A stretch of DNA of 34,156 bases, taken from Lachnospiraceae bacterium (lineage in GTDB: Bacteria > Bacillota > Clostridia > Lachnospirales > Lachnospiraceae). The position numbers were made by a program, and so were the translations under genes. The notes under the pieces were generated by a model. It was given only the letters and a program-made list of their open reading frames with translations, was not told the origin of the DNA and did not search any database. The DNA lies in assembly GCA_016282435.1 (NCBI GenBank), contig JAEEKN010000164.1:1-34156 (forward strand). Reading direction: 5' to 3'. The stretch's first letter is position 1. The number at the start of each line of letters is the position of its first letter. Shown piece by piece: positions 29,864-34,156 of this stretch.

Positions 29864-29892
29864 TTGACAAGTTACTTTTTGCTAACTATAAT
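29864..29892 (+). promoter_or_regulatory. feo operon promoter
   Basis: TTGACA (29864-29869), 17-nt spacer, TATAAT (29887-29892). Confidence 0.75.
29871..29886. promoter_or_regulatory. Candidate metalloregulator operator A (GTTACTTTTTGCTAAC)
   Basis: Occupies nearly all of the -35/-10 spacer; reverse complement GTTAGCAAAAAGTAAC matches sites at 30418 and 33888. Confidence 0.6.
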
Positions 29893-29945: not shown

Positions 29946-30158
29946 ATGATGCCACTAAATTTAGCAGACCCGGGCAGGGAAGAGATTATCAAGCGTATCG
30001 GCGGAACACCCGAAGTAAAACAGCATTTGGAGAATCTGGGCTTCGTAGTAGGCGGAAGTGCTACGGTGGTTTCCTCGATAAACGGGAATATCATAGTGAA
30101 TGTTAAAGAATCAAGAGTAGCCATAAGTAAAGAGATGGCTGCCAAGATTATGGTATGA
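29946..30158 (+). CDS. feoA: FeoA family protein
   Basis: MMPLNLADPGREEIIKRIGGTPEVKQHLENLGFVVGGSATVVSSINGNIIVNVKESRVAISKEMAAKIMV; RBS AAGGAAGGAG. Confidence 0.8.
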   Translation: MMPLNLADPGREEIIKRIGGTPEVKQHLENLGFVVGGSATVVSSINGNIIVNVKESRVAISKEMAAKIMV

Positions 30159-30172
30159 TAGAGGAGGAATAC

Positions 30173-30394
30173 ATGAGAACATTACGAGATGTTGAAATCG
30201 GCAAAACAGCCAAAGTTGTTAAGCTTCACGGTGAAGGAGCCATCAAGAAGAGGATTATGGATATGGGCATAACCAAAGGAGTTGAGATATATGTCCGCAA
30301 GGTAGCACCCTTGGGAGATCCTATAGAGATTACAGTCAGAGGATATGAACTTTCATTAAGGAAGGCTGATGCAGAGCTTGTCGAGTGCGTATAA
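30173..30394 (+). CDS. feoA: FeoA family protein (second)
   Basis: MRTLRDVEIGKTAKVVKLHGEGAIKKRIMDMGITKGVEIYVRKVAPLGDPIEITVRGYELSLRKADAELVECV; RBS GAGGAGG. Confidence 0.85.
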   Translation: MRTLRDVEIGKTAKVVKLHGEGAIKKRIMDMGITKGVEIYVRKVAPLGDPIEITVRGYELSLRKADAELVECV

Positions 30395-30417: not shown

Positions 30418-30433
30418 GTTACCTTGTGGTAAC
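30418..30433. promoter_or_regulatory. Candidate metalloregulator operator B (GTTACCTTGTGGTAAC)
   Basis: Perfect 6-bp arms GTTACC/GGTAAC. Confidence 0.6.
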
Positions 30434-30526: not shown

Positions 30527-33043
30527 ATGGATATCAGAATAGCCCTTGCGGGCAATCCGAACAGCGGTAAGACCACCCTGTTCAATGCACTGACCGGATC
30601 AAACCAGTTTGTAGGAAACTGGCCGGGAGTAACGGTGGAAAAAAAGGAAGGCAAGTTAAAAAAACATGACGGAATAACCATTACAGACCTTCCGGGTATA
30701 TATTCTCTGTCACCGTACACACTTGAAGAAGTGGTAGCCAGGAACTATCTCATAAACGAGAGACCTGACGCCATCCTTAATATCATAGACGGTACGAACC
30801 TGGAGCGTAACCTGTACCTTACCACACAGCTTGTTGAACTCGGCATCCCCGTAGTACTTGCCATAAATATGATGGATGTAGTAAAAAAGAACGGGGATAA
30901 GATAGATACAAAGCAGCTCTCTAAACAGCTGGGATGCAAGATAGTAGAGATATCAGCTCTTAAAGGTGAAGGAATCATGGAAGCGGCTGAGGAAGCTATA
31001 GACGCCGCTAAAAACGGAAAAACAATACCTCAGCATACATTCTCGGGTCCGGTAGAACATGCGATAGCCCATATTGAAGAAGCAGTTCTCCATTCCATGC
31101 CGGAAGAGCAGCAGAGATGGTACGCCATAAAGATTTTTGAACGTGATGAAAAGATACTGGAGCAGCTGAACATATCATCCGATAAAATGACTCATATCGA
31201 GGAGGATATCAGATCGGCAGAGAAAGAACTTGATGACGATGCCGAATCAATCATTACGAACGAAAGATATGTATATATCGGAGAAATATTAAAAGCTTCT
31301 TATAAGAAAAAGAATAAGGGAAAGCTGTCAGCTTCGGACAAGATAGATAAGATAGTCACAAACAGATGGCTCGGGCTTCCTATATTTGCGGCAGTCATGT
31401 TTGCTATATACTACCTGGCCATGGTTACTGTCGGAGCTAGTGCAACTGACTGGGCTAATGACGGATTGTTCGGTGACGGCTGGCATCTGTTCGGCATAGG
31501 CGGAGGTGCTACCGAAGAAGCTGAAGAAGAGTATGGGGATACAGATGCTATTCTTGCAGGATTCCTGGCAAAAGCGGATGAAGACGGTTACGATATAGCA
31601 CCGGCTGAAGAAGCTATGGATACCGAAGCAGAAGAATTTGATGCATCCGCAGCGGTAGAAGCGTTAAATGCATTAATGGCAAACTATTCCGACAAATCAA
31701 CGGAACTCACATATGAACTTGAAGATGAGGAAACACTGGAAGTAACGGAAGAAACGGCTACTCTCGAGGATGTGGACGGTGCCATAGAGATGTTTGGCAA
31801 GTATGAGGGCGGCGTAGACCCTGCAAATTATGGAGTATGGGTACCCGGTGTTCCTGTACTGGTTGAAGACCTTTTGGATAAGATAGGATGTGCCGACTGG
31901 CTGAAGAGCCTGATTCTTGACGGTATCATAGCCGGTGTGGGCGCTGTACTCGGATTCGTACCTCAGATGCTTGTGCTGTTCTTCTTACTTGCATTTGTTG
32001 AGGCATGCGGATATATGGCACGTATTGCATTCGTACTTGACAGGGTATTCAGGAAGTTTGGTTTATCAGGAAAATCATTTATCCCGATCCTTATCGGTAC
32101 AGGTTGTGGTATCCCCGGTATTATGGCATCCCGAACCATTGAGAATGAGCGAGACCGAAGGATGACCATCATAACCACTACGTTTATCCCTTGCGGAGCA
32201 AAATTACCTTTTATAGCCATGGTAGCAGGCGCTATATTCGGTGGTTCTGCATGGATATCAACAGGTGCATACTTTATCGGACTTGCGGCGATCATCATCT
32301 CCGGTATCATGTTAAAGAAGACAAAGATGTTCTCAGGCGAGCCTGCTCCTTTCGTTATGGAGCTTCCCGCATACCATATGCCTACTATCGGCAATGTACT
32401 TAGAAGTATGTGGGAGCGTGGATGGAGCTTTATCAAGAAGGCCGGTACAGTCATCCTTATTTCACAGATTGTTATATGGTTCCTCAGCGGATTCGGCTGG
32501 GCAGAGGATGGTTTCAGAATGCTGGCTGAGGATGAGATCGATGTCAGCATACTGGCTAAAATCGGTAATGCTATTGCTTGGATCTTCTCACCTCTCGGTT
32601 GGGGCAACTGGCAGGCGGTTGTTGCTTCTATCACGGGACTTATCGCAAAAGAAAACATTGTTGGTACCATGGGTGTACTGTATGGCGGCGCAGGCAATAC
32701 ATATGAAGCCATTGGTGCTGCATTTACCGGTATTGCAGGAATGTCATTCCTGGTATTCAACCTCCTGTGCGCTCCCTGCTTCGCAGCCATCGGTGCTATC
32801 AAGCGTGAGATGAACAGCCATAAGTGGACCTGGTTTGCTATAGGATATCAGTGCGGATTTGCATATCTCGTATCACTTTGCATCATGCATATTGGCGGAT
32901 TATTCACCGGCGAGGCAAATGTTGTGGGCGTGATAGTATCAGTCGCAGCCATAGGATTTATGTTCTACATGCTGTTTAGACCGTATAAAGAAGCAAATAT
33001 CAGAACCGCAAAATATAAGGGCGAAACCAAAAAAGCCGCATAA
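30527..33043 (+). CDS. feoB: FeoB ferrous iron transporter
   Basis: GNPNSGKTTLFNALTGSNQFVGNWPGVTVEKKEG G1 motif, DLPGIYSLSPYT, Gate motifs LIGTGCGIPGIMASRTIENERDRRMTIITTTFIPCGAKLP. Confidence 0.95.
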   Translation: MDIRIALAGNPNSGKTTLFNALTGSNQFVGNWPGVTVEKKEGKLKKHDGITITDLPGIYSLSPYTLEEVVARNYLINERPDAILNIIDGTNLERNLYLTTQLVELGIPVVLAINMMDVVKKNGDKIDTKQLSKQLGCKIVEISALKGEGIMEAAEEAIDAAKNGKTIPQHTFSGPVEHAIAHIEEAVLHSMPEEQQRWYAIKIFERDEKILEQLNISSDKMTHIEEDIRSAEKELDDDAESIITNERYVYIGEILKASYKKKNKGKLSASDKIDKIVTNRWLGLPIFAAVMFAIYYLAMVTVGASATDWANDGLFGDGWHLFGIGGGATEEAEEEYGDTDAILAGFLAKADEDGYDIAPAEEAMDTEAEEFDASAAVEALNALMANYSDKSTELTYELEDEETLEVTEETATLEDVDGAIEMFGKYEGGVDPANYGVWVPGVPVLVEDLLDKIGCADWLKSLILDGIIAGVGAVLGFVPQMLVLFFLLAFVEACGYMARIAFVLDRVFRKFGLSGKSFIPILIGTGCGIPGIMASRTIENERDRRMTIITTTFIPCGAKLPFIAMVAGAIFGGSAWISTGAYFIGLAAIIISGIMLKKTKMFSGEPAPFVMELPAYHMPTIGNVLRSMWERGWSFIKKAGTVILISQIVIWFLSGFGWAEDGFRMLAEDEIDVSILAKIGNAIAWIFSPLGWGNWQAVVASITGLIAKENIVGTMGVLYGGAGNTYEAIGAAFTGIAGMSFLVFNLLCAPCFAAIGAIKREMNSHKWTWFAIGYQCGFAYLVSLCIMHIGGLFTGEANVVGVIVSVAAIGFMFYMLFRPYKEANIRTAKYKGETKKAA

Positions 33044-33045
33044 AA

Positions 33046-33073
33046 TCAATCAGAGGGACGGTTCTCTGATTGA
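33046..33073 (+). repeat. 28-nt palindromic repeat (TCAATCAGAGGGACGGTTCTCTGATTGA), left copy
   Basis: 10-bp arms TCAATCAGAG/CTCTGATTGA; exact reverse complement at 33288-33315. Confidence 0.9.
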
Positions 33074-33083
33074 AAATTCAAAA

Positions 33084-33142
33084 TGTCATCCTGAGCGCAG
33101 TGAAGAGTCATTAAAAATTCTTCGCTAAAGTTCAGGATGACA
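33084..33142. repeat. REP/MITE-like inverted repeat (TGTCATCCTGAGC...TCAGGATGACA)
   Basis: Perfect 11-bp terminal arms TGTCATCCTGA/TCAGGATGACA. Confidence 0.8.
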
Positions 33143-33188
33143 TCAATTTATGTTGAAATATAAATTGACTAATGATAATATAACAAAA

Positions 33189-33250
33189 GAGATGTGGAGC
33201 ATCGTTTTGTTACCGAGGAAACGCTGAAAGCGTTTTCGAGGTGACTTTGA
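33189..33250 (+). repeat. 62-nt structured dispersed repeat, copy 2
   Basis: 59/62 identical to 5598-5659. Confidence 0.85.
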
Positions 33251-33287
33251 TGTGACGGATTATATTTTGAAACGTGTCAATCCGAAA

Positions 33288-33315
33288 TCAATCAGAGAAC
33301 CGTCCCTCTGATTGA
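33288..33315 (-). repeat. 28-nt palindromic repeat, right inverted copy
   Basis: TCAATCAGAGAACCGTCCCTCTGATTGA, exact reverse complement of 33046-33073. Confidence 0.9.
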
Positions 33316-33341
33316 AAAACAGGAGAGGAGGACAAATCAGT

Positions 33342-33830
33342 ATGAACCCCGGTACATTAGCGGTTTCGGCCGTTTTAGTCATAATAGTAGGCCTTATAAT
33401 CTACAAAATGATCAAAGATAAAAAATCAGGGAAATCCTCCTGCTCTTGTGGTGGCAGCTGCTCAGGCTGCGGGATGGCAGGAAGCTGCCATAAACCGTCA
33501 AAGCCGGAACTGTCTTCTGCAAAATCATCAGAAAATGTATCAAACAGTGATCTGTCAACACATGTTTCAGATACTGGAAGCTTACAGATAGAAGACCGGA
33601 ATGTCATAAAGAAGATAACCCTTCAGATTGACGGCATGATGTGCGGTATGTGCGAGAGCCATATAAATGATGCCATAAGATCAAAGCTGAATGTCAAAAA
33701 ATTAAAAACCTCACATGTAGCGGGAACGTCTGAATTCCTGACAAACGATGTGGTGTCGGATGATACTCTGCGTGATATTGTAGAAAAAACAGGATACAGG
33801 TTAACAGGCATAACTAGGAGTTTTCAATAA
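33342..33830 (+). CDS. FeoB-associated Cys-rich membrane protein fused to HMA (heavy-metal-associated) domain
   Basis: ATG at 33342 after AGGAGAGGAGG; single TM then CSCGGSCSGCGMAGSC; C-terminal ITLQIDGMMCGMCESHINDAIR HMA motif. Confidence 0.75.
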   Translation: MNPGTLAVSAVLVIIVGLIIYKMIKDKKSGKSSCSCGGSCSGCGMAGSCHKPSKPELSSAKSSENVSNSDLSTHVSDTGSLQIEDRNVIKKITLQIDGMMCGMCESHINDAIRSKLNVKKLKTSHVAGTSEFLTNDVVSDDTLRDIVEKTGYRLTGITRSFQ

Positions 33831-33856
33831 AATCCCAAAATAAATTAAAAAAGTGC

Positions 33857-33885
33857 TTGACAAGTAAAAAGAGATATGATATATT
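33857..33885 (+). promoter_or_regulatory. Strong sigma-70-type promoter at right edge
   Basis: TTGACA (33857-33862), 17-nt spacer, TATATT (33880-33885). Confidence 0.65.
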
Positions 33886-33887
33886 CA

Positions 33888-33903
33888 GTTAGCGTAAGGT
33901 AAC
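33888..33903. promoter_or_regulatory. Candidate metalloregulator operator D (GTTAGCGTAAGGTAAC)
   Basis: 13/16 identical to the reverse complement of operator A (GTTAGCAAAAAGTAAC); lies at the predicted transcription start. Confidence 0.6.
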
Positions 33904-33929
33904 TGATAAAAATATTTAGTATTTCGCAC

Positions 33930-34156
33930 GTTTGGTTTCTTTTGAAACCCTCGTCGTTAAATCCTTCAAACCTCATGACGGTATACCGCCAATGTACCGT
34001 CGCTCATACTTTTAGACTTTGAGACCCAATATTACTTCTTATTTAGCATATTGATGAGCATCGGGCGAATGACTAAATCTATTTGTCAGAAGATACTGTA
34101 AATATCGGCTGGCCCTGAACCGGATTCGGGGAAGGGAAGCCGATAATTTATCAGTA
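33930..34156 (+). ncRNA. Candidate structured RNA or leader (class unknown), continuing past the window
   Basis: Hairpins 33934-33949 (GGTTTC/GAAACC), 33977-34001 (GACGGTA/TACCGTC) and a 17-bp bulged stem 34094-34156 with inner helices; no ORF in the supplied track covers it. Confidence 0.5.

Follow-up and report, generated by a model that had tools for sequence, protein, structure and literature searches.

A structured RNA behind a DtxR-type operator downstream of feoAB in Lachnospiraceae, and its possible role in iron sparing

The locus at the contig end

The window analysed here is a whole contig of 34,156 bases from a Lachnospiraceae genome that is 83% complete and assembled in 453 contigs. 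It carries the feoA, feoB and FeoB-associated/HMA protein genes, all recognised by Pfam matches, and the RNA locus lies 3' of all three, with the 3' end of the RNA and its terminator beyond the contig end. The features are as follows.

29871-29886, + strand: operator of the same kind as that of the RNA, in the upstream feoA operon promoter (pattern scan)
30155-30394, + strand: feoA
30418-30433, + strand: operator of the same kind, between feoA and feoB (pattern scan)
30527-33043, + strand: feoB
33312-33830, + strand: FeoB-associated/HMA protein gene
33857-33885, + strand: sigma-70 promoter TTGACA-17-TATATT, 11/12 consensus
33888-33903, + strand: operator GTTAGCGTAAGGTAAC, a DtxR-family-type box just 3' of the -10
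33892-34156, + strand: structured RNA, its 5' end placed from the -10 and its 3' end past the contig

A preliminary description of this DNA had claimed such a promoter, an operator-like box directly after its -10 and about 250 nt lacking an ORF, and each of these was found. TTGACA (33857-33862) is followed by a 17-nt spacer and by TATATT (33880-33885) with an extended TG, and the element is the top promoter-like site within 33000-34156. The operator is a 16-base near-palindrome. No ORF of at least 60 aa overlaps 33890-34156, and the short ORFs at the RNA locus are few, none being conserved among homologues. Between feoB and the FeoB-associated gene (33047-33320), the window also holds palindromic repeats, namely AATCAGAGGGACGGTTCTCTGATTGA and its inverse, GTCATCCTGAGC... 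and GTTACCGAGGAAACGC...GAGGTGAC; similar units occur in L002, L011 and L021 and look like dispersed repeats.

Structure, conservation and distribution of the RNA

The RNA starting at 33892 folds with an energy of -80.9 kcal/mol against -57.9 (SD 4.7) for its dinucleotide shuffles (z = -4.9), and none of the 200 shuffles was as stable. The three hairpins first noticed by eye (33934-33949, 33977-34001 and 34094-34156) all occur in the minimum-energy fold, and the fold adds a closing helix (33903-33927/34065-34089) that the first reading had overlooked. The inner closing helix of the window copy is in competition with a local pairing, 34002-34007/34054-34059. The elements of the fold are listed below.

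33903-33927, + strand: outer closing helix P1, 5' strand; pairs with 34065-34089 (pair probability 0.97-0.99), with an equivalent helix in each homologue
33934-33949, + strand: small hairpin GGTTTC-TTTT-GAAACC, also in G006
33950-33955, + strand: inner part of P1, 5' strand CTCGTC; pairs with 34053-34058, with two-sided changes in 6/6 pairs across the nine sequences
33960-33975, + strand: J1, unpaired AATCCTTCAAACCTC(A), the proposed seed; nine copies identical except for the last base, unpaired probability mostly >0.7
33977-34001, + strand: hairpin P2 with stem GACGGTATA/TGTACCGTC and the invariant loop CCGCCAA (33986-33992); two-sided changes in 4/9 pairs
34003-34049, + strand: J2, a conserved segment containing GAGACCC (34021-34027), to which the long form adds ACTTCTTATTT (34034-34044)
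34053-34058, + strand: inner part of P1, 3' strand GATGAG, with covariation among nine sequences
34065-34089, + strand: outer closing helix P1, 3' strand (pair probability 0.97-0.99)
34094-34156, + strand: P3, the long 3' hairpin of the long form

Homologues of the RNA are present in other genomes of the genus, which are rumen Lachnospiraceae MAGs. Five full copies, including the window, and a core match in G014 were found by blastn in 24 genus genomes, and a covariance model built on the 109-nt core detected nine copies in 8 of the 24, with two in G010. A second, broader covariance model made from all nine copies found no further ones in 41 relatives, so that the matches stay within the genus. 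When 397 genomes of the family were searched with a covariance model under strict filters, at the risk of missing weak matches, only the genome's own copy came back. Scanning 85,462 species genomes for the exact motif led again to the loci already found, in Lachnospiraceae MAGs from rumen and omasum (RGIG2768, RGIG6836, RGIG7538, RUI091, RUI443, Tb.RUG.451 and Tb.RUG.456). Within the genomes sampled, the RNA family is therefore narrow, since these searches gave no copies beyond the genus MAGs. The motif scan also returned 21 other stretches, mostly of Pelagibacteraceae, which score at most 26 bits against at least 84 for the true copies; three of them have a match overlapping the motif, and these lie inside ORFs and lack the stem.

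Rfam (riboswitches, FsrA, RyhB and others) gave no match anywhere in the window at the gathering score, nor one at E<=5 for 33831-34156. The preliminary description had seen no match to the conserved cores of GEMM/c-di-GMP, T-box, M-box, yybP-ykoY or cobalamin. The plasmid and phage collections searched by blastn contained no matches, and no iron-responsive small RNA of Lachnospiraceae was found in the open-access literature searched.

There is strong evidence for the structure from covariation. In the alignment of nine distinct sequences, which was fitted to the model and so favours the structure, standard pairs occupy 97.0% of the cells, two-sided changes are seen in 10 of 15 pairs, and the covariation score reaches 0.756, where shuffles give 0.252 (0/500 as high as the real value). 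Sliding the partners by one to three columns lowers the paired fraction to 23-43%. The register of P2 is fixed by its invariant loop, with 7 to 10 consecutive positions paired in every copy, and single-sequence folds, which are independent of the alignment, recover both the closing helix and the hairpin. About 30 unpaired bases are invariant while the scaffold stems vary. The core consists of the closing helix, AATCCTTCAAACCTC, a hairpin of ~9 bp with the loop CCGCCAA and an AGAC/GAGACC segment. Hence, a structured RNA that is absent from Rfam, as the preliminary description had suggested, is strongly supported by the covariation of nine homologues. A micro-peptide, MPPTY, encoded through the P2 loop was considered as the cause of the conservation and rejected, as in the window copy ATG has become ATA and the base paired with the altered one has changed as well.

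The copies fall into two forms sharing this core. The long form (window, G003, G006, G008 and G017) has the 3' hairpin TACTGTAAATATCGGCT...AGCCGATAATTTATCAGTA, followed in the four complete copies by a second operator-like palindrome, imperfect in G006, and then by a terminator-like hairpin. The second palindrome lies just 3' of the 3' hairpin (L080:8294-8309, L081:8146-8161, L082:11708-11723 and L013 ~1776-1791), at a position where a promoter is unnecessary, and could serve in repressor looping or as an RNA hairpin. The short form (G005, G014 and G010, twice) is devoid of the 3' hairpin and the second palindrome; its end is a hairpin followed by a run of T, for example AAAGCCCGG...CCGGGCTTTTTT in G014. 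A simple terminator scan missed most of these ends, partly on account of loop length.

The operator and the candidate targets

The promoter recurs in eight of the nine copies, and in these eight the operator keeps its register, its first base lying 30-31 nt beyond that of TTGACA. In the ninth, G010:C87 (L076, ~9500), a truncated ZIP transporter gene stands in place of the promoter, the junction being a rearrangement or a misassembly.

The pattern GTTASNNNNNNSTAAC occurs at 17 sites of the window's own genome against 3 for the reversed pattern. Boxes of this kind lie directly upstream of DtxR-family genes (Fe_dep_repress + Fe_dep_repr_C) in G000, G003, G006 and G014, at DUF6110/P-type ATPase genes that come after DtxR-family genes, upstream of DUF3793-flavodoxin and, in relatives, at a ZIP gene. 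They also occur at genes with no evident iron link, such as those for TetR/ABC exporters, a methyltransferase and enolase. Iron-dependent DtxR-family repressors control their own gene, ferrous uptake and flavodoxin, and feoA, feoB and flavodoxin are iron-starvation genes; the family also includes MntR. The predicted repressor site of the RNA gene is shared with the DtxR-family gene itself, and the control by a Feo box that had been suggested gains support from the operators at feoA, feoB and the DtxR-family genes. As a prediction from promoter and operator, metal control of the RNA is well supported; from the same sequence evidence we infer a DtxR-family protein as the probable repressor and iron as the probable metal.

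Two further sites in G000 were observed. At G000:C284:4183-4198 (L069), the operator lies at the promoter of the enolase gene, which is unexpected for a metal regulon. At G000:C284:5441-5640 (minus strand; L069, L002), a promoter and the same operator start a leader of ~100 nt that has an inverted repeat, GGTCAAC...GTTGACC, and a second operator, and lies upstream of the DUF3793 and flavodoxin genes; it is a possible further structured iron-regulated leader.

J1 and J2 were tested for pairing with 803 start regions, drawn from ~1 Mb of G006. Start regions pair with J1 more strongly than do windows upstream or in coding sequence, but the same is true of many shuffled versions; the mean of J1 over the 803 start regions is -7.83 against -6.68 +/- 0.76, with 15/200 shuffles as low, which is not significant. 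J2 did worse than its own shuffles on the same regions. Near-matches to the J1 complement were roughly doubled over the reversed pattern, a count left uninterpreted because codon composition can produce such an excess.

The scan for J1 complements pointed to nfnA, an iron-sulfur flavoenzyme gene, in G014, where its product is annotated as an FAD/NAD-binding protein like sulfide/dihydroorotate dehydrogenase and a glutamate-synthase-like subunit comes next (NfnAB-like). Over the Shine-Dalgarno of nfnA lies AAATGAGGTTTGAAGGA, which over 17 nt is perfectly complementary to the RNA that G014 itself carries. The pairing in G006 has a 2-nt bulge and reaches -18.4 kcal/mol, whereas no start region among the 803 sampled goes below -17.9. 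Among the tested carriers of the RNA, the site is present only in G014 and G006 and absent in G000, G005, G008 and G010; it is also present in G011 and G020, incomplete assemblies in which the RNA was not detected. Because of the way in which the site was found, nfnA is only a lead as a candidate target. G014 has two nfnA genes (L174 C53; L194 C103) with near-identical proteins and different start regions, and the J1 complement is at one of these and not the other. In G006 (L087:1501-1516; G006:C14:57161) and G014 (L098:1501-1516; G014:C169), an M18 aminopeptidase gene also has a perfect J1 complement of 16-17 nt, located ~64 nt upstream; this gene was set aside as a target, as the complement precedes the apparent promoter.

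Competing explanations and known iron-sparing RNAs

The locus is best explained, with slightly more belief than doubt, as a free-standing structured RNA gene that is repressed by a DtxR-family protein through GTTAG...TAAC and spares iron by pairing with mRNAs. The structure of the RNA, its non-coding nature, the conservation of promoter and operator and the company of the operator follow from the sequences; the repressor, the metal and the mRNA pairing we infer. A metal-dependent repressor of the DtxR family, sitting on an operator that overlaps the start site, would block the gene; when the metal, most likely iron, is scarce, it would leave, and the RNA would be expressed along with feoAB, flavodoxin and other genes of iron starvation. 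The covarying closing helix and hairpin would hold open the invariant pyrimidine-rich strands AAUCCUUCAAACCUC, CCGCCAA and GAGACC, which would most likely pair with mRNAs that encode iron-using or dispensable proteins and, by covering their purine-rich ribosome-binding sites, block translation. Against this stand the size of the RNA, which exceeds that of known iron-sparing small RNAs, the non-significant pairing of J1, the values of J2 below its shuffles, the patchy nfnA site, and the operators at genes with no evident iron link.

The preliminary description had left the choice between a small RNA and a leader or riboswitch of the next gene. A cis-acting leader, be it riboswitch, attenuator or protein-bound, is improbable, although the window contig ends before its next gene and three copies (G003, G008 and G017) are followed on the same strand by a shared gene, whose 463-aa product has an apparent signal sequence. 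Beyond these three, no single class of gene regularly follows the RNA: the next gene in G006 is convergent and resembles a metal ABC permease, and those in G005, G010 and G014 are others and differ. Moreover, in G003 and G017 a terminator-like hairpin lies between the RNA and the 463-aa gene, and the short-form copies end in their hairpin plus T run with no fitting gene downstream. A promoter of its own in eight of nine copies and terminator-like ends in the complete copies are the marks of a free-standing gene. Thus, the free small RNA is favoured, because the downstream genes differ and the short-form copies have their own terminators, and the leader fits worse, though it may hold for the three copies.

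There is a small yet appreciable chance that the RNA is metal-regulated and acts through a protein or another conserved partner, by titration or as a scaffold, and not on many mRNAs. In its favour are the about 30 invariant unpaired bases on a variable scaffold, and neither J1 nor J2 shows a significant pairing excess at start regions. On the other hand, such a partner is hypothetical, and the iron-sparing small RNAs of Gram-positive bacteria usually have unpaired C-rich loops as their seeds (PMC9410917, PMC12871923). A related reading, in which a metal-repressed RNA of 200-330 nt acts by its invariant core (J1, the CCGCCAA loop and AGAC/GAGACC) on one conserved partner, protein or RNA, is doubtful; if true, it would be a mode of metal control distinct from seed pairing of the FsrA/RyhB type. 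That the same small RNA answers to manganese or zinc instead of iron is likewise unlikely, for the box is shared by feoA, feoB and flavodoxin, even though the DtxR family includes MntR and the box is found at ZIP and P-type ATPase genes. That the locus is no RNA gene but a mobile element or a DNA repeat rich in hairpins is hardly credible. Long inverted repeats are present, with further palindromic repeats nearby, but there is one copy per genome (two in G010), every copy except one has a strong promoter and operator in front of it, and the loops are invariant with covarying stems.

Lachnospiraceae are abundant in the rumen and gut and dependent on iron-sulfur enzymes. Post-transcriptional iron saving in Lachnospiraceae becomes open to direct tests with an RNA family that is backed by covariation and comes with one testable target, a likely DtxR-type regulon and a defined promoter, and the variable scaffold with invariant loops lends itself to simple mutational tests.

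The RNA is a real family and a new one, of a known functional kind: on the best reading, its likeness to FsrA, IsrR and MrsI would be one of function, with no membership by sequence or Rfam. The enterobacterial RyhB, which depends on Fur and Hfq, may serve as a functional model, being repressed by iron and shutting off proteins that use it (summarised in PMC12871923), although the window RNA has no Rfam match to it. FsrA of Bacillus subtilis is an 84-nt, Fur-repressed RNA that is made when iron is short and pairs through C-rich single strands with ribosome-binding sites (PMC12871923). The proposed function would be alike, whereas the window RNA is at least 265 nt long, has a DtxR-type box and matches no Rfam family. 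Similarly, IsrR of Staphylococcus (174 nt, two Fur boxes) holds C-rich single-stranded regions in a stem-loop scaffold and targets mRNAs of iron-sulfur enzymes (PMC9410917). A stem-loop scaffold with conserved, C-rich single strands and an operator at the promoter are common to both, the targets of the window RNA being candidates only, and the window RNA differs in its long closing helix, its seeds and its DtxR-type box. MrsI of Mycobacterium tuberculosis, of ~100 nt with a six-nucleotide seed, has in its promoter a site for IdeR, a DtxR homologue (PMC8628891). Though unrelated to the window RNA in sequence and host phylum, MrsI sets the precedent for a DtxR-family box in front of a small RNA.
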